From: a virus
Reading direction: 5' to 3' (one strand)
IMG/VR virus record: IMGVR_UViG_3300032677_000165
Span: 1 to 23,136 of that record
DNA: 23,136 nucleotides
The notes under the pieces: model-generated
The model's input: only the letters and a program-made list of their open reading frames with translations
What the model was told of the DNA's origin: nothing
Database searches by the model: none
Part shown: piece after piece, positions 921-22,003 of the stretch
Position numbering within the stretch: position 1 is the stretch's first letter
How the letters are laid out: each line of letters opens with the position of its first letter
Program-made: the position numbers and the translations under genes

Positions 921-2594
921 TTAAACAGGAAGAAACTTATGTGATTTAACAGCAGGGGCTTGTTTCTTCCTGCCCGTCCGTGCCATACGGACTTTATCCA
1001 TCATTTCGTATAGTTTTCGCGATCCGGCTTCCGTTGAACCGTTTCCGAGATGTGAAACCACATCTGCTGGTACAACAAATTCGCCATCAGCAAGTGCAGC
1101 ACGTTGCGGTTTATTCCCGTGGATGACGGCAGGGATTGAGTCTGACATCCCATCGCCGGGGCCTCTGAGAAGTTTTCCGCCTGCTGCGTATTCATGAGTA
1201 GACCCCAAACCTTGATGAATATTCCCACCATGCGCGTAGGAATGCACATGCCCACCCTTACGACCATTAGCAAATTGACTAAAAAATGGGTCAATATTTG
1301 CCTCGCCAATTGACCCATACGCGGTGAACATGTCCCCCAATAACGTAGGGTCAAACGTATTGTACTGTGACGTACTGGAATCATTTGATGGGGATGACCC
1401 AAATGTAGATGTATCCGGGCTAGTGGCACTGGGTACATAGTCAGAATTCAACGGGGATAAACTCGGATCCCCCGACTGTGGCATCAAACTCGGGTCGGCA
1501 AGCATTTGAGCAATTGTAGGCGATCCGGGAGTGGATGTATCAGGAGTCGCAGACTGTCCGGCAGCGGCAGCGGCAACATCTTTATTCAAAATACCAGACA
1601 CATCTAAATTTGAATTCAAAACCATATCCGGCGGACTCAGATTAGGTGTTCCCTTGCTATATATAGGATCAAGTTTGGTAGACGGGGATACTGCATTAAG
1701 TAATTTTTCACCGCCGTTGAGTAATGTACCCAAACCGGGGACCACCATGTTTGCCCCTATTTTTGCAGCGTCCCACGCGGCTGTACCCCAATTTACAGAG
1801 CCACTATTACCCGTATCATTTGGATTTGGCATTACCGTTAGGGTAGAAGGGTCTGTTATAGGATTAGTGTCTAACGATAAAGGATCATTAGGATTCGAAA
1901 AAGAATTTACATAGTCGCTTACCTGACTAGTACTCATAGCTCCACTAGGTAGCCCAGATGGAGTAGTATCTCCACCAATAGTAGAAAAGTTATTTGGGTT
2001 AGTATTTAAAATATTATTTACTTGCGTAGGATCAAGCCCCGCAAATATTCCAGAGTTAGTTACAGGGGTGCCGCTAACATAAGTACTACCAGCCGGTGGA
2101 GCGCCAACTAAACCTGTACTGCTACCGCCGCCACCCGCATTACCTGAATCCCCTCCAGAAGGGGGAACTACTGTAGGAGGAGGAGGAGGAGCTACACCTG
2201 AATCCCCTCCAGAAGGGGGAACTACTGTAGGAGGAGGAGGAGGAGCTACTGTAGGAGGAGTACTCCCCGTTGTTTTATTAGTAGTCCAAGGTTTTGTAGC
2301 TAACTGATTAATTTTATTTATATACGCAGTTATAGCATCAGGCGATGGCTTAGCAGCCTGCTGTGCGTTGTACTGATCCATATAAGAGGTACTTGGCGTA
2401 ACAGTCTTATTAGCAGACTGGTCAGGATTTTCCTCCGTAGGCACTGCACCACCCCCATCGAAATGGAGGGTAGCTTCTTTATACGAGTCCATGCCCTGTC
2501 GAAGCCCCGCTTTCCAGTTAGGCAAAGTAACAATGCCCGATCCGTGAGCGTGAGGATGGTGGGCAAGAGGGCGAGGCATTCCGGGGATTTCCAT
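921..2594 (-). CDS. Large low-complexity virion protein with a conserved C-terminal phage domain
   Basis: 557 aa. The N-terminal 20 residues are His/Pro-rich. Residues about 114-151 are two copies of an 18-residue polyproline unit (VAPPPPPTVVPPSGGDSG), followed by a long Ser/Thr/Pro/Asn-rich linker. A hydrophobic Gly-rich stretch lies at about 273-301 (AKIGANMVVPGLGTLLNGG), of a kind seen in phage proteins that meet membranes. The C-terminal 120 residues hold the recognisable part: KGGHV at 446-450, GGKLLRGPGDGMSDSIP from 472, LADGEFVVPADVVSHLGNG from 501, and a basic tail ending FLPV. This C-terminal block is recurrent in uncultured-phage proteins, but I know of no assigned function. Position next to the 1-909 gene suggests an internal or ejected virion protein. 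TAGGAT precedes the ATG. Confidence 0.85.
   Translation of the reverse strand: MEIPGMPRPLAHHPHAHGSGIVTLPNWKAGLRQGMDSYKEATLHFDGGGAVPTEENPDQSANKTVTPSTSYMDQYNAQQAAKPSPDAITAYINKINQLATKPWTTNKTTGSTPPTVAPPPPPTVVPPSGGDSGVAPPPPPTVVPPSGGDSGNAGGGGSSTGLVGAPPAGSTYVSGTPVTNSGIFAGLDPTQVNNILNTNPNNFSTIGGDTTPSGLPSGAMSTSQVSDYVNSFSNPNDPLSLDTNPITDPSTLTVMPNPNDTGNSGSVNWGTAAWDAAKIGANMVVPGLGTLLNGGEKLLNAVSPSTKLDPIYSKGTPNLSPPDMVLNSNLDVSGILNKDVAAAAAGQSATPDTSTPGSPTIAQMLADPSLMPQSGDPSLSPLNSDYVPSATSPDTSTFGSSPSNDSSTSQYNTFDPTLLGDMFTAYGSIGEANIDPFFSQFANGRKGGHVHSYAHGGNIHQGLGSTHEYAAGGKLLRGPGDGMSDSIPAVIHGNKPQRAALADGEFVVPADVVSHLGNGSTEAGSRKLYEMMDKVRMARTGRKKQAPAVKSHKFLPV
2142..2249 (-). repeat. Two perfect 54-bp tandem copies encoding a polyproline unit
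   Basis: Positions 2142-2195 and 2196-2249 read as identical. Each copy encodes one 18-residue unit of Ala-Pro5-Thr-Val-Val-Pro-Pro followed by Ser-Gly-Gly-Asp-Ser-Gly in the 557-aa protein. A partial third copy begins at about 2248. Identity at the DNA level, not just the protein level, points to a recent duplication, probably by slippage. The unit would form a stiff polyproline linker. Confidence 0.9.
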
Positions 2595-15303: not shown

Positions 15304-15609
15304 TTAATCCTTACCAGTATCAACCGGGACACGTGGATTGGTCTTTACCGGATCCCGATCCATATCGTCGTCATGAAATTTACGTCCGCGCTCCGCAGCA
15401 CCATAACCACGCATTTCGATGTATGGCTTTTTCTTGCCATAAGGCTTTGGGTACCGCCCATAGGTCTTGGTCCCAGTCAGGTCAATATCATCTTCCGGAT
15501 AGCCCTGACCCTTGGTGAACCGAGGGTTCTTCATCGGCTGTTTATACTTCCCAATAGGATCTTTCTCATCCCACCCAAAGTACTTAAAGTCCTGCCAATC
15601 GTTACTCAT
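15304..15609 (-). CDS. Small charged phage protein with MRGxGAA motif
   Basis: 101 aa, highly charged, rich in Lys, Asp, Tyr, Gly and Pro, with little hydrophobic core. Near residues 66-78 it has MRGYGAAERGRKF. The MRGxGAAxxGxxF motif recurs in many short phage proteins next to adaptor genes. I know of no assigned function. It overlaps the preceding gene by 1 nt (TAATG) and is followed 3 nt later by the adaptor GTG. It is probably disordered on its own and may act as a plug, linker or assembly factor; this is inference. Confidence 0.72.
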   Translation of the reverse strand: MSNDWQDFKYFGWDEKDPIGKYKQPMKNPRFTKGQGYPEDDIDLTGTKTYGRYPKPYGKKKPYIEMRGYGAAERGRKFHDDDMDRDPVKTNPRVPVDTGKD

Positions 15610-15764
15610 TACTTGCCCCTTCCACCGCCGTGGCTGCGCTGGTTCATAGCACGGGCCAGATTGCGGCCATGCTGCTTCATCGCCAGCGACGTAACGCCCT
15701 CACCCTTTTTGCCAGCACTGCCAGCGGGGTACGGGGATTTCCCATGTTCTTTCTTGCTAGCCAT
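15609..15764 (-). CDS. Short basic phage protein (51 aa)
   Basis: ATG at 15764 with a good TAGGAG site; TAA at 15609-15611 overlaps the next ATG as TAATG. The product begins MASKKEHGKSPYPAGSAGKK, then GEGVTSLAMKQHGRNLARAM, and ends QRSHGGGRGK. It is strongly basic, His- and Gly-rich at the end, with a probable helix in the middle. The form (KxSPYPAG...GVTSLAMKxxGRNLARAxNQ) is one I associate with short conserved phage proteins in this gene neighbourhood. Nucleic-acid contact would suit the charge, but it is not shown. Confidence 0.78.
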   Translation of the reverse strand: MASKKEHGKSPYPAGSAGKKGEGVTSLAMKQHGRNLARAMNQRSHGGGRGK

Positions 15765-15773
15765 CTAAATCTC

Positions 15774-16148
15774 CTAAGTTACGGTAACCGTACCGATAAC
15801 ACCTTTGGCACGTAAATCATTAGGTGTATTCGGCAGGAACGACGTATTCATTCCGACTGGATTCCACCCATACTGTATAATCCGACTACCGCCGTCCCCG
15901 CCTACCGAACCTGTACCAACATAATAGCTCAGATCAGGGCGCGGCTCTCGTACAGCCTGCGGGTCATTAACCGGATAAAGCCCCAACTGCAACTGCGGCT
16001 GATCCGGCTCCCAGCATTCAGGACAAACTTTTATGCTTACATTCTTGGTTTTGATAACCAAGTTTTTAAGTTGGGTTAGTTTGTACCTGAACCCGCAGCG
16101 ATCACATTCTGCAATCGCATTTTTGCCAGATGCAAACCTGCTAGGCAC
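15774..16148 (-). CDS. Zinc-ribbon phage protein in the connector region
   Basis: 124 aa from a GTG start (16146-16148, AGGTGA upstream). The N-terminal half has a four-cysteine zinc ribbon: CDRC at 15-18 and CPEC at 42-45, with the core sequence ECDRCGFRYKLTQLKNLVIK and a typical follow-on WEPDQPQLQLGLYPVNDPQA. The C-terminal half is Gly/Asn-rich and beta-like, ending TVTVT. Proteins of this exact form occur repeatedly in phage structural operons near adaptor genes, with no assigned function. A ribbon with such a tail could be a structural joint rather than a DNA-binding regulator, since it lies deep in a late operon. It is coupled to the first adaptor-like gene (3-nt gap). Confidence 0.8.
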   Translation of the reverse strand: MPSRFASGKNAIAECDRCGFRYKLTQLKNLVIKTKNVSIKVCPECWEPDQPQLQLGLYPVNDPQAVREPRPDLSYYVGTGSVGGDGGSRIIQYGWNPVGMNTSFLPNTPNDLRAKGVIGTVTVT

Positions 16149-16151
16149 GAA

Positions 16152-16889
16152 TCACCTATAGCCTATGAAAGTCTCTCGTGGCACAAATCGGATAGCAGCT
16201 TTTTCACGATCTTCATCTGCCGCTCGCTGCCAATCTTCTTCGTATGCAGCTTTAAGCACTGGCATCCGAACATCCGCGCCGGGAATTTTCATAGATAAAT
16301 AATAGGCCAAACCAGATATCAACGCAGGCCACATACGAAACGGTACGTCCTGCGCGTTAATTCCCGTGCCAGCATCCTGCATACGCCGCAAACGCGTATA
16401 AACAAATGTGTACGTCGTGCTGTTATCCGGGGGGGGCCATACCGTAATAGTCGGGGCCGAAACTGCGCTTGTCTGGGAATTAGTCTGACCACTTAGTCGG
16501 TTGATCCAAACCTGAATAGGGCGACCTGTCGCGTTCTTATTAGGAATAGACAGATACGTAGAACTGGAAATACGGGTGATATTGATATCTTGCTGAGTAG
16601 TACCAGAGCCGGTACGGACTACATGATCAAGTAGATCAACAGTATCCAAAGGAAGTGTGTACGTAGCCGTAGCGTTGCTAAGCGTGATAGTCCCCGTATC
16701 CAACGTCCAGAGATTGATACCCCGGTTTGCCCATTCCATGAGCAATAGATTAAGACTACGTATAGCCGTGCGTAGATCGTAACCAGACCTAACTTCAGCC
16801 CCACAACGCTCAAACGCTTCTTCCACAATCTCATTAAGATCAGGAAGAAATGATGTAGTGCCCGTTGTTTGGCCTAGTGCGGATGTCAT
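16152..16889 (-). CDS. Head-tail adaptor-like protein (P22 gp4/T7 gp11-type role inferred)
   Basis: 245 aa. The helical opening includes DLNEIVEEAFERCGAEVRSG (17-36) and DLRTAIRSLNLLLMEWANRG (38-57), and LWTLDTGTITLSN begins a beta domain at 60. It ends with a helical C-terminus (PALISGLAYYLSMKIPG and EEDWQRAADEDREKAAIRFV). The pattern of an N-terminal helical bundle, beta insert and C-terminal helix is that of ring adaptors that join the portal to the tail in short-tailed phages. I recall this family as an adaptor/tail accessory group, but which model phage protein is closest needs profile comparison. It abuts the preceding stop exactly (TAA|ATG). Confidence 0.78.
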   Translation of the reverse strand: MTSALGQTTGTTSFLPDLNEIVEEAFERCGAEVRSGYDLRTAIRSLNLLLMEWANRGINLWTLDTGTITLSNATATYTLPLDTVDLLDHVVRTGSGTTQQDINITRISSSTYLSIPNKNATGRPIQVWINRLSGQTNSQTSAVSAPTITVWPPPDNSTTYTFVYTRLRRMQDAGTGINAQDVPFRMWPALISGLAYYLSMKIPGADVRMPVLKAAYEEDWQRAADEDREKAAIRFVPRETFIGYR

Positions 16890-17042
16890 TTACTTTCTCT
16901 TGGCGGTCTTAGCGCTTTTACGAAAAGCCTCAGCCGTGGGTGCGCCTTTTGCCCCGGGCTTACGCATTTTTTCCCCGGATCCAGCAGCAATACGAACCTG
17001 CTTCCGGTGGATATTTTCATAAAGTCCGGGTTTTTTAGCCAT
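16890..17042 (-). CDS. Short basic phage protein (50 aa)
   Basis: ATG at 17042, overlapping the preceding stop as TAATG; TAA at 16890-16892 abuts the next ATG. The product begins MAKKPGLYENIHRKQVRIAA, then GSGEKMRKPGAKGAPTAEAF, and ends RKSAKTAKRK. The KxGLYxNIHxKRxRIxxGSGEKMRKPGxKGAPTxxAF pattern is one of the most recurrent short proteins in phage structural operons that I know. Its function is not assigned. Very high Lys/Arg content and no hydrophobic core suggest an extended basic peptide bound to nucleic acid or to an acidic virion surface. Confidence 0.85.
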   Translation of the reverse strand: MAKKPGLYENIHRKQVRIAAGSGEKMRKPGAKGAPTAEAFRKSAKTAKRK

Positions 17043-17383
17043 TAGCAATTCCATGCCCGCAAGGACTTGTTGATCCGACTGTTTGGATCGCTAGCCGTTT
17101 TCTTACTTGTCAGCTTACGCTTCATACCAGACATTCTCGCGCAAAAAGAATCCCTACGCGAACCACCTTCTGGCTGTGGGCGCTTCAGGTTCATACCCTG
17201 CGCTTTAGCCGAAGCTCTACCTTTGGCATTTAGCCCGCCAGCGGGGTTTTTGCCTTCTTTACGCTGCCAAGCCGGGGATCCTCCCGACTTAAACATCTTC
17301 ACGGGCACATGAGCATCTTTCCGCTGGATTTTATGCGGAACTTTACTAGGGCTAACAGCACCCATGCCCCGTGAAGGCATCAT
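17042..17383 (-). CDS. Basic phage protein, DUF6321-like
   Basis: 113 aa. The conserved core is PAWQRKEGKNPAGGLNAKGR (37-56), then RRDSFCARMSGMKRK (76-90), and DPNSRINKSLRAWNC at the end. This order (WQRxEGKNPxGGLNxKGRxS ... RRxSFCARMxGM ... SRINKSLRxW) is that of a small phage family I recall as DUF6321; the number is from memory. The protein is very basic. Two ATG codons stand in tandem (17381-17383 and 17378-17380), so the true start may be one codon later. It begins 3 nt after the His-rich gene and overlaps the next by 1 nt. Confidence 0.82.
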   Translation of the reverse strand: MMPSRGMGAVSPSKVPHKIQRKDAHVPVKMFKSGGSPAWQRKEGKNPAGGLNAKGRASAKAQGMNLKRPQPEGGSRRDSFCARMSGMKRKLTSKKTASDPNSRINKSLRAWNC

Positions 17384-17386
17384 GGC

Positions 17387-17581
17387 TTACTTTCCGTGAA
17401 AGTGCTTACGGATATGCTCATGATGAGGCATATGCGAATCCACATGACCACCATGCTTGTGGTGATGCACAAACGGCGTCTCATGCTCGTGATGATGCTT
17501 TGGAGAATGCCCATCCTCATGAGATACACGGTGCTTACCATGCGACTTGTGACTGCCATGTTCCGAATGATGCTTAGCCAT
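17387..17581 (-). CDS. Extremely histidine-rich small protein
   Basis: 64 aa, of which I count 23 His (about 36 percent), with Lys, Gly, Ser, Glu and Asp making up most of the rest. It begins MAKHHSEHGSHKSHGKH and includes SPKHHHEHETPFVHHHKHGG (27-46) and ends EHIRKHFHGK. A good AGGAG site precedes the ATG. The composition is unlike any ordinary fold. Binding of Zn, Ni or Cu ions, or a pH-dependent charge switch, are the natural suggestions. KHGGHV at 42-47 is shared with the 268-aa protein. The competing frame here gives a Met/Arg/Ser-rich product without ribosome-site support. No family recognised. Confidence 0.75.
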   Translation of the reverse strand: MAKHHSEHGSHKSHGKHRVSHEDGHSPKHHHEHETPFVHHHKHGGHVDSHMPHHEHIRKHFHGK

Positions 17582-17595
17582 TTCAAATCTCCTGA

Positions 17596-18195
17596 TTAAC
17601 GATTAATGCCGCGAGTACGGCCCTTGATTTCACAACCGCTGCCACGGATAGACCCGCCACCCGCGTATTTTTTAACTTTGCCGCCATGTGCTTTCTTGTG
17701 CATAGGCTTATGCTCAGCATTAGGCATAGTAGCGCTTACCTGCTTGGAAGACTTATGTGGTACAGCTTTGTCCTCCTTTTTAGCACTAAGACTCCCACGC
17801 TTCATGTTTTTCGCATGCTTTTTAGGAGCTACTTTACCGCCCTTCTTCATAGCAGCCATAGCCGTAGGCATATACCCTATAGGCGCCCCAGAAGGAGCCG
17901 GATTCTGTGTCGGAGGAGCGCCTTGAGGTGCAGTAATAGATCCTTGAGAAGATTCAGGCATCATACGACCCAAGGGCTGATTAGGGTCCGGTGCAAACAT
18001 CGGTACTCCGGGCGGTACGTTTTGCGTAGATCCCGGAAGCTGATTTTGAGATGGAGACAGCGTCTGAAGCCGGGAATTACCCGGCATAAAGTTAGTTGGA
18101 TTCTGCATCGGAAGCCGACCGCCCCGTTGAGGCATCCCTTGCTGATTCCTAAAAGGCATATTACCTAGCCTCTTCATCAAATTCTGGCCGTCCAT
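17596..18195 (-). CDS. Gln/Pro-rich then Lys-rich protein with conserved basic C-terminus
   Basis: 199 aa. The first half (1-108) is rich in Gln, Pro, Asn and Met with no visible fold. From 113 it is Lys-rich: MAAMKKGGKVAPKKHAKNMK, then HKKAHGGKVKKYAGGGSIRG (168-187), and a final GCEIKGRTRGINR. The ending (YAxGGxxRGxGCExKGRTxG) is recurrent at the C-termini of phage proteins of this neighbourhood and is probably the functional part. The gene abuts the previous stop exactly (TAA|ATG). Likely disordered and possibly in the capsid interior; the function is unknown. Confidence 0.78.
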   Translation of the reverse strand: MDGQNLMKRLGNMPFRNQQGMPQRGGRLPMQNPTNFMPGNSRLQTLSPSQNQLPGSTQNVPPGVPMFAPDPNQPLGRMMPESSQGSITAPQGAPPTQNPAPSGAPIGYMPTAMAAMKKGGKVAPKKHAKNMKRGSLSAKKEDKAVPHKSSKQVSATMPNAEHKPMHKKAHGGKVKKYAGGGSIRGSGCEIKGRTRGINR

Positions 18196-19002
18196 TTAAC
18201 GTACCTTGCCCTTGGTATGCCCCTTCTTAGCAGCGCCATCACGCCCCTTGCTCGGTCCAATCATATGCTCCGGACCCGGAGTAGTCGGCTCGCCCGGACC
18301 CACATGCCCGCCAGTGTAATAGTGGTGATGAGAGTGGTGATGAATACCACCATGACCATGATGCACATGACCACCATGCTTCATACCGGGAGGAGCGCCA
18401 CCCATCGGAGGAGCGCCACCCATCGGAGGAGCGCCACCCATCGGAGGAGCGCCACCCATCGGAGGAGCACCAGCACCGCCCATTAGCGCAGCGAGAGCAG
18501 CGGGGTTAACAGGAGCGCGACGAGGAGCCATGCGACCAGCAGCTTTACGAGGAGCGCCCAGACCGCCACGAGCCATGTGCTTGCTGTGGTGCTTAACATG
18601 CCCGCCCTTCTTCATGCCGTAGCCTTTCAGGTGCGTATCACCTTCAAGTCCTGCCTTTTTGCTATGCGGGGGCTTACGACCGCCTTTTTCGTCATCTTTC
18701 ATGCCAAAACCGGTCTCTGCAGTCTCGATTTTTCCGCCGCGCTTGTATCCCATCTCTTTATGCTCTTTACGCTCATGCTCCATCACTTTTTTAGGAGCGT
18801 GACCACGCTTCAACGCCTTCATTTCGGCGTCAGCCATTGCCTTAGATTCTTTCATTTCGCCACCTTTGTTGAATTTCTTGCCTTTATCGGCTTCAGAGAA
18901 GTCTTTACCAACAGATTGAGGGATCCCAACCTTCCGTGCAAAAGTTGGGTTATGGGCAACCGCTGCCATAAGACGGTGCTGTTTGGAACTACTACTTGGC
19001 AC
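18196..19002 (-). CDS. Basic His/Gly/Pro-rich protein with tandem APPMGG repeats
   Basis: 268 aa from a GTG start (19000-19002, GGGGAAG upstream), overlapping the preceding gene by 11 nt. Residues 1-45 match a recurrent phage N-terminus (SSSKQHRLMAAVAHNPTFAR, then KVGIPQSVGKDFSEADKGKK), loosely similar to DUF3008-type starts. The middle is a Lys-rich, charged region (50-165). Residues 179-204 are APPMGG hexamers. Residues 208-246 are very His-rich (KHGGHVHHGHGGIHHHSHHH), and the tail is basic. GGK/GGH motifs are at 89-92, 133-136, 210-213 and 231-234. It looks disordered and cationic. No enzyme motif. Role unknown; virion association is suggested by the neighbours. Confidence 0.8.
   Translation of the reverse strand: MPSSSSKQHRLMAAVAHNPTFARKVGIPQSVGKDFSEADKGKKFNKGGEMKESKAMADAEMKALKRGHAPKKVMEHERKEHKEMGYKRGGKIETAETGFGMKDDEKGGRKPPHSKKAGLEGDTHLKGYGMKKGGHVKHHSKHMARGGLGAPRKAAGRMAPRRAPVNPAALAALMGGAGAPPMGGAPPMGGAPPMGGAPPMGGAPPGMKHGGHVHHGHGGIHHHSHHHYYTGGHVGPGEPTTPGPEHMIGPSKGRDGAAKKGHTKGKVR
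18389..18460 (-). repeat. Four perfect 18-bp tandem repeats plus a degenerate fifth
   Basis: Identical units at 18389-18406, 18407-18424, 18425-18442 and 18443-18460 (ggaggagcgccacccatc on the plus strand). Each encodes one Ala-Pro-Pro-Met-Gly-Gly hexamer. The fifth unit from 18461 has changed bases. Perfect identity suggests recent slippage expansion, so copy number may vary between related phages. Confidence 0.93.
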
Positions 19003-19183
19003 CGTGCATCTTCCCCAACGTCTGCGCCAAACGCGCCCTCTGACCCAGTTTCCCCGGTTTCGATGCGGCCTTGGCTAACGTCTTGGCCGGGATTTTTTCG
19101 CCTTTGGGCACTTTTAGCTGCTCATGCAATGCTCCGGGCTTTTTAATAGCCCCGGCAATCCAGTTTTTCTTTTTACTAGCCAT
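18992..19183 (-). CDS. Small basic conserved phage protein (63 aa)
   Basis: 63 aa, about a quarter Lys. It begins ASKKKNWIAGAIKKPGALHE, followed by QLKVPKGEKIPAKTLAKAAS, and ends RARLAQTLGKMHGAK. The NWIxxAIKKPGALHxxLxVPxGxKIPAxxLxxAA pattern is strongly conserved among phage structural operons I have seen, with no firm function. The predicted shape is short helices with all-positive faces, which suits contact with DNA or an acidic portal or capsid surface. Its 3' end overlaps the next gene (GTG start) by 11 nt, and it begins 2 nt after the previous stop. Confidence 0.85.
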   Translation of the reverse strand: MASKKKNWIAGAIKKPGALHEQLKVPKGEKIPAKTLAKAASKPGKLGQRARLAQTLGKMHGAK

Positions 19184-19185
19184 TA

Positions 19186-19947
19186 TTAACCCGCCTTAAT
19201 TACGAATGCCTGAAGCTGCCAAGACGCGCTAGGCGTCGCAGTAGTAGTGCAATTTACCGTCACCGTAGTGGAAGTGGTAGTAGCTACAATCCCAAGTATC
19301 GCCTGTCCAGACAATGAGCTATACAACGTAGGCTGTGCAGAAGACAATACCGTAGCCGTGGGAGAAGAAATAGTACCCAGAGCGTTATTCAAATCTATAA
19401 AGCCCGCCACGACGCAAACGTAATCCCCTACCGCCGTAGTTACCGTTACAGAACCAGAAACCGTTCCCGAAGTAGTCTTGGTACCTTGCGCGGTAACAGC
19501 GGTACCGAACGGAGTTGTTTGGCTGACCCCTGTAAAATACGCACCCGTTACTGATACTTCATCTGGCGCGGTGCTTGCGTAGTTATAGTGAAGATTAGCT
19601 GTTGTTGCTGGGGTAGGAGGAGAAAGTACGTACCAAGAAGCTAATTTAAGACGGGTATTGTCGCTAATAATATAGCTACCATTCTGAGTATAGACTGATG
19701 TACCTCCGCCAATCTGCTGAATAAAACCAGAACCAGTAGTGGCGGTCAGATTAGCCGCAGCGGCTCCAAATAACCCACCAGAAACAAGAGCCAGATGAGT
19801 GCCCGTAGGTGGGGTATATGTAGCCGATACAGCGCCAGCCGCAAAACCAAAATCGCCTGTAACCCCATAAGCAAAGCTTACAGTGGGTGTACCGGCAGCA
19901 GCCGCTGCACGGTAGCTTGGTAGGCTATTACCAAACCCGAATGGCAT
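19186..19947 (-). CDS. Beta-rich phage structural protein
   Basis: 253 aa, rich in Ala, Thr, Ser and Val with few charges. It begins PFGFGNSLPSYRAAAAAGTP, then alternating strand-like segments such as GTHLALVSGGLFGAAAANL, ADEV-type loops, and a late TTTSTTVTVNCTTTATPSAS run, ending LQAFVIKAG. There is no membrane segment. It starts one base after the 88-aa gene stop (TAA A ATG), so is coupled to it. The composition suits a virion surface or decoration protein. I do not recognise a specific family. Confidence 0.7.
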   Translation of the reverse strand: MPFGFGNSLPSYRAAAAAGTPTVSFAYGVTGDFGFAAGAVSATYTPPTGTHLALVSGGLFGAAAANLTATTGSGFIQQIGGGTSVYTQNGSYIISDNTRLKLASWYVLSPPTPATTANLHYNYASTAPDEVSVTGAYFTGVSQTTPFGTAVTAQGTKTTSGTVSGSVTVTTAVGDYVCVVAGFIDLNNALGTISSPTATVLSSAQPTLYSSLSGQAILGIVATTTSTTVTVNCTTTATPSASWQLQAFVIKAG

Positions 19948-19948
19948 T

Positions 19949-20215
19949 TTAGTAAATCGCTACCAAGTTAGTTGCGGTAGTGGAAGTTGCCCATACCCGC
20001 ACGACCTGAATCGGAAGGATAGACCCTGCCGTCAACCCCTGAAATACAACCTGATCCCCCGTAGGAGTCGTGACCTGAATATTGCCTGCGCCGCCCACAT
20101 ATATAACAGACGTATATGCCAAGTTAGCCGTGTCGCTAGGCGTCACAGCTTTAGCACCAGCCGGATACATCGGGAAGGTCGGGCTAGGATTAGTCTTACC
20201 TAAAATCTGCGCCAT
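19949..20215 (-). CDS. Small conserved phage virion protein (88 aa)
   Basis: 88 aa. The core is recognisable: AVTPSDTANLAYTSVIYVGG (23-42), AGNIQVTTPTGDQVVFQGL (43-61), then SILPIQVVRVWATSTTATNL and a final VAIY. Proteins with the PxDTxNLxxxxxxIYVGxxGxxxVxTxxGxxVxFxxxxxGxxLPxxVxRVxAT order are common in phage head modules, one compact beta domain long. They are generally taken to be virion decoration or head accessory proteins. GAGG precedes the ATG. A strong hairpin separates this gene from the one before, which may lower its expression compared with the 236-aa protein. Confidence 0.8.
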   Translation of the reverse strand: MAQILGKTNPSPTFPMYPAGAKAVTPSDTANLAYTSVIYVGGAGNIQVTTPTGDQVVFQGLTAGSILPIQVVRVWATSTTATNLVAIY

Positions 20216-20271: not shown

Positions 20272-20982
20272 TTAGTACGTAGCAACCGGCGGGTTGGCAA
20301 TCGGGCTAGTCGGCGTCTGCGGGTACCACGAACCGTCCGGGTTACGAACGGCATAACTAACCATAAACCCAATCGATCCGCCAGAAATCGCGGGAGTAGT
20401 ACCGCCAGTAAACGTAAATACAAGCTGAAGCAGGGTATCTGTCGGACCCGTATTAGTAATCGCGCTGACGTTGCTCGACGCAACAATCGGGTTAGTCGAA
20501 GCAATCGCAGTGGTCGTACTTCCAAGAGCGTAGTTACCCGCCGTAGGAAGAACCGTCGTATTGGCCGAAGAACCAATATTGGCAATATTCTGAGCCGACG
20601 CATACGTCGATCCCGGAGCACCAATCAAGTTAACCGCAATCTGGAACCCCGTGGGGGATCCACTAAAAGACAGTGCTGTGTAAATGTTCAAATCGATATT
20701 GTCGATATATGCGCCTGCCGGGAGCACAATCGGATAATTGACACCAGACGCGGAGTAGGTCGGGATAAAGGTATACGGGAAAGACGCAGCGGGAATCGCC
20801 GTCAGAACCGAGGCAGGGATACTAATAAACTGAAGCGCATCACCGGCTCCGGTATTACGGTAACTGCCGCCAGTACCCGGCTGAAGAAAAGTCGCGCTGG
20901 GGGTAGCCGAAGTGGCAACAACTGGGTTGTTGTTCTTCTGCGTACCAGAAAGGATAGGACCAAGGAAAGTCTGCAAACCCAT
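20272..20982 (-). CDS. Structural protein encoded after the major capsid gene
   Basis: 236 aa. It opens GLQTFLGPILSGTQKNNNPV, then a beta-rich body with GDALQFISIPASVLTAIPAA, LPAGAYIDNIDLNIYTALSF, FQIAVNLIGAPG, and ends VSYAVRNPDGSWYPQTPTSP. There is no charged cluster or membrane helix. A strong AGGAG site lies 7 nt before the ATG, after the 118-base intergenic region with two inverted repeats. Position directly after the capsid gene suggests a head decoration or minor head protein. I recognise the general style, not the family. Confidence 0.75.
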   Translation of the reverse strand: MGLQTFLGPILSGTQKNNNPVVATSATPSATFLQPGTGGSYRNTGAGDALQFISIPASVLTAIPAASFPYTFIPTYSASGVNYPIVLPAGAYIDNIDLNIYTALSFSGSPTGFQIAVNLIGAPGSTYASAQNIANIGSSANTTVLPTAGNYALGSTTTAIASTNPIVASSNVSAITNTGPTDTLLQLVFTFTGGTTPAISGGSIGFMVSYAVRNPDGSWYPQTPTSPIANPPVATY

Positions 20983-21100: not shown

Positions 21101-22003
21101 TTAGGCGCAGCCGAACACGCCCAGCGGGTCACTCCAGCCGAAGCTATAACGCTCGCGGCTCTTGTAACGCACGTTGCCCGTGTCGAAGTCTCCATCCATG
21201 GAGTTCTGAAGCGGGGTACGCACGAAATGCTTCAGGCCATTCGGCACGTCCGTGAGCAGGTACCAACCGTGGGTATCCGTCAAGAAGTGGTTGACCTTGA
21301 AGCCTTCCGGAATCGCGCCCATGCTCTTCAGAGCATTGATGTCGTTGTCCGAGGTACCGACGCGAAGCTCGGTGTCAAGCAGGCGCTTGGCAACGAACAT
21401 GTTGTTCGGGGGGACAACCAGCTTGCGGGGCTTGGCCGCGATCAGCAGGCCACGCTCATCAGTCCAAGCAGCGATCTGAATAACGGCGGCTTCAAGCGAA
21501 GTCTCGTTAAGATCCGGAGCCGTGGAGAACGTGTTGCTGTTCGTGCCGCCATTAACCAGCGGGTGGGCCGTGCTAAACAGGGGGACGCCATCGCCGCCCG
21601 TGTACTGAGTGTTGAACCCGTTGTTGACGATAGAAGCAGCTTTAACCTGCTTGGTATACGCCATGGCGCGGGCCAGACCCTTCGTGTACCGCTTCGACAG
21701 ACTGTCGTACAGGTTGTCCTCAATCGCCTCTTCGGTGAGCGAGAAGCCCAGAGCAACCGTCTCGTGGTTGTAACGAGCGGTCCAAGCTTCCTGCGCGTTG
21801 TCGTACGCAATCGCCTGACCTTCATTCTTGACCGGAGCCGCGTTAAAGCCCGACAGCTTGGTCTCTTCCTCAAACGAACGTTCCGAGGTTTCAGTCTCGT
21901 ACAGTTCCTTGTGTTCCTCACCATAGGAAGCGTACTCAAGACCGAACAGAGCGTTCAGGCCGGGGAGCAGTTCCTTGAGAAGTTGTGCGCGTGAAATAGC
22001 CAT
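21101..22003 (-). CDS. Major capsid protein, Mu gpT-like (HK97 fold)
   Basis: 300 aa. It shows an N-terminal helix (RAQLLKELLPGLNALFGLEY), an E-loop-like acidic stretch (YETETSERSFEEETKLSGFN at about 35-54), a long helix with HETVALGFSLTEEAIEDNLY, and TKGLARAMAYTKQVKAASIV. In the later part are GDGVPLFSTAHPLVNGGTN, AWTDERGLLIAAKPRKLVVP and the closing FGWSDPLGVFGCA. This is the layout of the Mu-like major head subunit gpT family (Pfam PF10124, from memory), which forms the icosahedral shell. No protease domain is fused and no processing site is evident. GGGAG precedes the ATG. The gene has notably GC-rich third positions compared with its AT-richer neighbours at 1-3 kb. Confidence 0.9.
   Translation of the reverse strand: MAISRAQLLKELLPGLNALFGLEYASYGEEHKELYETETSERSFEEETKLSGFNAAPVKNEGQAIAYDNAQEAWTARYNHETVALGFSLTEEAIEDNLYDSLSKRYTKGLARAMAYTKQVKAASIVNNGFNTQYTGGDGVPLFSTAHPLVNGGTNSNTFSTAPDLNETSLEAAVIQIAAWTDERGLLIAAKPRKLVVPPNNMFVAKRLLDTELRVGTSDNDINALKSMGAIPEGFKVNHFLTDTHGWYLLTDVPNGLKHFVRTPLQNSMDGDFDTGNVRYKSRERYSFGWSDPLGVFGCA

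Follow-up and report, generated by a model that had tools for sequence, protein, structure and literature searches.

What do six consecutive genes for small, mostly basic proteins contribute to a tailed phage when they sit between its capsid and head–tail adaptor genes? The question is raised by IMG/VR virus record IMGVR_UViG_3300032677_000165, a 23,136 bp tailed-phage fragment (hereafter the window, meaning the whole stretch analysed) in which all genes considered lie on the minus strand and follow one another, in the direction of transcription, as capsid gene, three genes for neutral proteins, the six-gene set p1–p6 and an SU10-type adaptor gene (Table 1). The set draws on protein modules that recur, exchange places and fuse in other phages, and that are linked to head or packaging genes in several unrelated groups. 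By analogy with better characterised phages, we give an even chance to the reading that its products are late, DNA-binding polycations packed into the phage head.

A coupled run of basic and histidine-rich genes

A first-pass annotation, made from the sequence alone, had described six consecutive, coupled open reading frames (ORFs) of 63, 268, 199, 64, 113 and 50 aa between the capsid and adaptor genes, strongly basic or His-rich, mostly without a hydrophobic core and in several cases matching recurrent but uncharacterised families. Their place and lengths proved exact, and the set does lie between capsid and adaptor, but the three neutral-protein genes separate it from the capsid gene. Successive spacings from p1 to p6 are -11, 0, +14, +3 and -1 nt, with the p6 start overlapping the p5 stop (TAATG), and p6 abuts the adaptor gene (0 nt). 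Net charges of p1–p6 are +14, +26, +24, +2, +21 and +12, making five strongly basic; the sixth, p4, is not basic at neutral pH and contains 23 His (36%), and may bind metal or carry charge only at low pH. When genes were classed as basic or His-rich at a net charge per length of at least 0.09 or a His content of at least 20%, thresholds picked post hoc, 7 of the 35 window genes qualified, and the run formed by six of these, p1–p6, had a permutation p of 0.000125. The scarcity of a hydrophobic core was likewise borne out, as ILVFMWY residues make up only 12–21% of p1–p6 versus 22–39% of the other window genes, with the exception of one 51-aa basic gene (14%).

Family matches were found for p5, p6 and the N-terminus of p2, and weakly for p1. 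The last corresponds to a module here termed M1 ('KNWI..AIKKPGAL...KLGQRARLAQTL'), with weak profile matches to phrog_15706/20603, and tblastn with p1 found nothing similar among cultured phages; an M1 protein also matched fusellovirus VP2 in Pfam below the cut-off (17.5 bits against 27) over 17 residues, which was taken as chance. Residues 1–44 of p2 form module M2N, which is phrog_16759 (E 1.8e-20) and also provides the N-terminus of phrog_22033/25121, annotated 'virion structural protein'. The remainder of p2, which has 25 His in all, is a tail rich in Gly, His and Lys; it has KxGG junctions and a GAPPMG repeat, and tandemly repeated DNA in the middle of this Gly-rich stretch (window 18390–18480) encodes GGAPPM units. 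Protein p3 has a Pro/Gln-rich body and ends in a divergent form (YAGGGSIRGSGCEIKGRTRGINR) of a C-terminal tag described below, and neither p3 nor p4 had a family match in the profile searches. In p5, a constant start ('MMPSRGMGAVSPSKVPHKIQRKDAHVPVKMFKSGG') is joined to module M5 (DUF6321, PF19846; 63 bits, curated cut-off 28.5), which holds the alignment invariants C81, R83, W111 and C113 of that family and ends in WNC, while p6 is module M6 ('GLYENIH..R..AGSGEKMRKPGAKGAPTA') and matches phrog_16028 over its full length (E 2.7e-25, profile 2–49 of 50). Against Pfam, p1–p4 and p6 had no match at E <= 1 and p5 matched only DUF6321; none of the six matched an HU- or histone-like profile there, and none matched a portal, neck or adaptor profile, the SU10_adaptor match being confined to the neighbouring 245-aa gene. 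The DUF6321 proteins of phages Greip and MinM2 (L174:3876–4127; H1, H257) carry the label 'RecA-like recombination protein', which seems to be an annotation error that has been passed on.

Comparison with contig L009 identified p2, p4 and p5 as real genes, since their protein-level homologues show far fewer non-synonymous than synonymous changes. The p4 homologue (L009:10417–10584) is 73% identical, with a non-synonymous to synonymous rate ratio (dN/dS) of 0.11; p5 is 79% identical with a dN/dS of 0.09, similar to that of the capsid protein (0.10); and p2 has a pN/pS of 0.34.

Modules recur, exchange places and fuse

Gene order was compared among 160 viral contigs, for which the capsid protein and p6 served as baits, together with the cultured relatives Pag-Yong1, HTVC023P, HTVC027P, DSL-LC04, CRP-901 and 023Pt_psg01, and the module profiles were run on all; for 11 kb of the window, megablast returned no near relative among cultured phages. 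The GenBank records MinM2, Pag-Yong1 and Pra-JY27 (L002, H76–H78), which share a length of 65,014 bp and the same match scores but bear the names of three different cyanobacterial hosts, look like one phage. Within the 45 capsid-to-adaptor intervals, representing 44 distinct phages (DSL-LC04 was fetched twice) and including the window, M5/DUF6321 occurred in 40, M2N in 32, M1 in 11 and M6 in 10. The set had been said to be kept together, and recurrent co-occurrence in the same interval agrees with this, but both order and membership vary. The set is therefore linked but fluid.

The modules are also physically joined in some phages. A single polypeptide carries M2N, M6 and M5, with K.GG-type junctions, in five contigs (L012, L076, L090, L113 and L128), and M6 is fused to M5 in L122. 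The constant start of p5 ('M[MR].SRGMG..[NA]PSKMP...[RK]+D...YA.GG') is present in 29 intervals, each with a single such ORF, and in different phages it precedes five different modules: M5 (the window, L009 and DSL-LC04), M1 (L064 and L076), M6 (L084 and L137), a 'YPNLVDNMRAA' module (L014, L019, L065, L067 and L086) and, most commonly, a 'QWSARKAQL' module. No convincing homology was found among these bodies (M5 versus M6: E about 0.01, 25% over 32 residues), and their interchangeability in one slot behind a constant start suggests that they do equivalent work.

A second shared peptide marks the other end. In 33 loci, 69 ORFs finish with the C-terminal tag 'KGG..S.RADG[IC]A.RGKT[KR]G[RK]..', whose start in every case falls within about 10–35 residues of the C-terminus. 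With the tag removed, the 69 bodies fall into 46 clusters, and in all 22 loci with at least two tagged proteins the bodies are unrelated. The tag evidence comes from metagenomic contigs only, as tblastn found no match in cultured phages. The co-recurrence of M1, M2N, M5 and M6 in one interval, their fusion in several contigs and their exchange behind a single N-terminus support the earlier suggestion that the six genes share a joint job.

The same modules accompany unrelated head genes

Beyond this phage group, p6-like genes lie within 100 bp of p5-like genes in 51 contigs without this adaptor, where the larger neighbours (77 scanned) included 34 terminase large subunits and 16 portal proteins. 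Among T7-like phages, the M5–M6 pair lies between the capsid and tail tubular protein A in P-SCSP1u (genes 16 and 17) and between the scaffold and capsid in HTVC022P and S-SBP1. HTVC033P carries, before a lysis gene, an array of seven genes for tiny basic proteins, among them M5, an M6 of reduced length and two further modules, and the modules are positioned away from the capsid gene in this phage, in HTVC035P and in Pag-Yong1. In cyanomyoviruses, DUF6321 forms the C-terminus of larger proteins near gp16/gp17 (495 aa in S-SM1, 165 aa in S-SZBM1), and P-TIM40 encodes it as a free 89-aa protein. S-SZBM1 also encodes, two genes after the small terminase, a protein of net charge +65 (gp082, L185:1478–3601) with a DUF3008-like start and a C-terminal match to S-adenosylmethionine (S-AdoMet) lyase (33 bits, cut-off 28). 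M2N makes up a gene of 58 aa in phiKZ and of 52 aa in BUCT555 and Eowyn; in 121Q gp51 and CBB_322 it forms the N-terminus. More than 500 phage records contain DUF6321, which is essentially viral, as a search of about 85,000 bacterial and archaeal genomes returned only 61 loci, mostly on contigs of metagenome-assembled genomes.

Conservation of the modules does not follow that of the structural genes. Identity to Pag-Yong1 is 84% for p5, 71% for the capsid protein and 33% for the adaptor, and in T7-like phages, whose capsid genes are not among the matches to the window capsid protein, it reaches 72–82% for p6 (82% in S-SBP1) and 42–60% for p5. Because module identity stays high where structural genes diverge, these comparisons suggest a universal partner common to all, such as DNA, rather than one specific to the capsid or adaptor.

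What the cassette may do

We propose that the six genes form a single cassette, whose products would be small polycations, expressed late and disordered over much of their length, and that these proteins have been put together from mini-modules (M1, M2N, M5/DUF6321, M6 and others) drawn from a common pool, with KxGG linkers and, often, constant end-peptides. The proteins would be made alongside the capsid protein and then enter the prohead or head, where they would bind the packaged DNA, screening part of its charge or organising it, and perhaps be ejected with it; the constant N- and C-terminal peptides may act as a loading signal. DNA binding, disorder, late expression, a head location and the role of the tags are inferred here; the set itself, its coupling, modular make-up, exchange and fusion, and its linkage to head or packaging genes in several unrelated phage groups are observed. 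Condensation or neutralisation of DNA in the head, as suggested at the outset, is plausible but unproven, and packaging is plausible, while full charge neutralisation is unlikely: one set contributes +99 against the about 120,000 phosphates of a ~60 kb genome, and 400 complete sets would offset about a third of that charge, copy number and genome size both being taken from relatives. A more ambitious version, in which many unrelated aquatic phages would share a pool of conserved polycationic modules that is shuffled, fused and tagged with common end-peptides serving as a head-loading code to yield a general, protamine-like organiser of DNA in tailed-phage heads, is speculative and on present evidence unlikely.

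Direct virion evidence for any module comes solely from CBB_322, a large jumbo-phage protein with an M2N N-terminus, which was identified in CBB virions by 30 unique peptides at 43.6% coverage (PMC5259590); the gene's identity was taken from the record and from the numbering agreement of CBB_318 and CBB_320.

Several observations weigh against a DNA-binding role in the head. The virion presence of CBB_322 could be owed to its other 800 residues. The DUF6321 protein of S-SZBM1 is absent from the virion list though its neighbours are present (PMC9146016), and 201phi2-1 gp383, a stand-alone M2N protein, is not marked as a virion protein although gp382 is; trypsin would yield eight (S-SZBM1_192) and four (gp383) peptides of a suitable length, so that difficult detection accounts for these absences only in part. 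The DUF6321 cluster of S-SM1, T4-GC119, was listed as a hypothetical protein by Sullivan et al. (PMC3037559), while the S-E7 record labels a protein of this cluster structural. The cryo-electron microscopy text on P-SCSP1u, which numbers genes differently from the record, includes models of the capsid, portal, adaptor, nozzle and fibre but of neither protein of the M5–M6 pair (PMC10575957). Structure prediction offered no DNA-binding precedent either: a Foldseek search of PDB folds with an AlphaFold2 model of the fused M2N–M6–M5 protein returned nothing significant, and so no DNA-binding or HU/histone-like fold; the M5 sequence had no match in the PDB, and p5 alone was poorly predicted (predicted local distance difference test score, pLDDT, 58). 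In the fused model, M2N forms three helices (pLDDT 93–94 over residues 11–30) and the rest scores lower. Finally, the capsid–adaptor interval of CRP-901 contains no recognised module, and in Pag-Yong1 DUF6321 lies ~5 kb past the adaptor, far from the capsid gene. An abundant 87-aa virion protein of S-SZBM1 (S-SZBM1_195) was considered as the DUF6321 protein and rejected, as it is different and acidic and the DUF6321 gene is S-SZBM1_192.

A serious rival reading is that the proteins would be late nucleic-acid binders working inside the infected cell and never part of the virion, with replicated phage DNA before or during packaging, the host nucleoid, RNA or ribosomes as possible targets. High conservation across unrelated capsid types fits a universal target of this kind, as do the adjacency of M5–M6 to terminase and portal genes in about 50 contigs, the modules lying away from the capsid gene in the three phages named above and their non-detection in S-SZBM1 and 201phi2-1 virions. 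However, several lineages favour head or packaging clusters, the abundant CBB virion protein carries M2N and the shared end-tags resemble a sorting signal, leaving an action confined to the cell a tentative and rather doubtful alternative.

A role through protein–protein contacts in the head, as a portal plug, an internal core or minor structural proteins binding adaptor or capsid, is improbable. The set directly precedes the adaptor in the window, in P-SCSP1u and in several relatives, and the T7-like placement between scaffold and capsid points the same way. Nevertheless, these modules, at 42–84% identity, occur alongside unrelated sets of head genes, so that a plug or core, which the first-pass annotation had also offered, is disfavoured because the modules do not co-diverge with portal and adaptor. 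The proteins also have very few hydrophobic residues, vary freely in order and membership, and are absent from the portal–tail components listed for P-SCSP1u.

Less probable still are injected, host-directed effectors (anti-restriction or take-over functions) resembling T4 IPI and loaded via common end-tags. Constant end-peptides on differing bodies, bodies of the p3 type that turn over quickly (69 tagged bodies fall into 46 clusters) and the precedent of the T4 internal proteins would suit such effectors, but conservation of the core modules is strong among phages of the dissimilar hosts Pelagibacter, Synechococcus and Planktothrix, and no match was found with PADLOC, whose library covers defence systems rather than counter-defence. 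That the run is a composition artefact or a set of spurious ORFs, as low-complexity Lys/His/Gly-rich sequence might suggest, is negligible given the family matches, the coupling of the starts and the dozens of contigs that show conservation, and is refuted by the purifying selection.

Neighbouring genes

A further gene resembling those of the set lies two genes beyond the adaptor and encodes a conserved 'MKK.GRN[ML]A[RK]..NQ' module (G51), which is found at the same place in relatives and in 33 of the 168 loci searched. The 124-aa gene that follows the adaptor (window 15774–16148) contains two pairs of CxxC-type cysteines that hint at a zinc ribbon, and has homologues adjoining the adaptor in 48 loci. 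Near the window end, a 557-aa protein (window 921–2594) contains the K.GG-type sequences RKGGHVHS, AHGGNIHQ and AAGGKLLR, which precede a C-terminal 'RGPGDGMSDSIPA' stretch.

Table 1 Coordinates of the six-gene set and its neighbours in the window, in order of transcription
Feature	Position	Strand	Length	Remarks
Major capsid protein	21101..22003	-	300 aa	71% to Planktothrix phage Pag-Yong1
Three neutral proteins separating capsid gene from set	20272-20982, 19949-20215, 19186-19947	-		
p1	18992..19183	-	63 aa	
p2	18196..19002	-	268 aa	GTG start
p3	17596..18195	-	199 aa	
p4	17387..17581	-	64 aa	
p5	17042..17383	-	113 aa	
p6	16890..17042	-	50 aa	
Head–tail adaptor	16152..16889	-	245 aa	SU10_adaptor PF24175 profile match
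Seventh gene of the same kind	15609..15764	-	51 aa	Module G51, 'MKQHGRNLARAMNQ'; net +9; beyond adaptor

Comparison with known systems

These modules are common in aquatic viromes and none has an assigned function. Their swapping, fusion, shared end-peptides and linkage to head and packaging genes would give many 'hypothetical' families one testable job, and a short head-loading tag, if true, would be useful for loading cargo into non-model phages.

The individual families have been recorded separately. DUF6321 (PF19846; PHROGs 4689, 3477, 727 and 11180), of which p5 is a member, is a domain of unknown function that here occurs in a swap-capable cassette and behind a constant N-terminal peptide. 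Similarly, p6 and the p2 N-terminus are direct members of phrog_16028 and phrog_16759, which here share one operon with DUF6321 and are fused to it in relatives; the phrog_16759 module begins phiKZ gp165.1 as well as the two annotated virion families. DUF5872 (PF19197), named in the algal giant virus CpV-BQ1 and not present in the window, is one family in Pfam, whereas its halves weakly match, below cut-off, two separate, adjacent basic genes in the capsid–adaptor interval of DSL-LC04 (L005:12340–12787).

The closest analogue, by analogy and not homology, would be the T4 internal proteins IPI, IPII and IPIII, which are basic, present at about 300–370 copies each, bind DNA at low salt and are loaded by a shared propeptide (PMC9026906). 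No Pfam, PHROG or NCBIfam model named internal protein matched the set. Like the T4 proteins, five of the six window proteins are small and basic, and mutually unrelated bodies carry a common terminal peptide, whose targeting role in this phage set is putative. Unlike them, the set lies in a non-T4 phage group; its tags comprise a different N-terminal peptide, carried by a single protein in each phage, and a C-terminal peptide on one to four proteins; its core modules are far more conserved; and for its products, with indirect virion data mixed, presence in the head at high copy and cleavage by a prohead protease, as in T4, would be putative. The cassette consists of families that are known but uncharacterised, and would resemble the T4 internal proteins in its proposed working.

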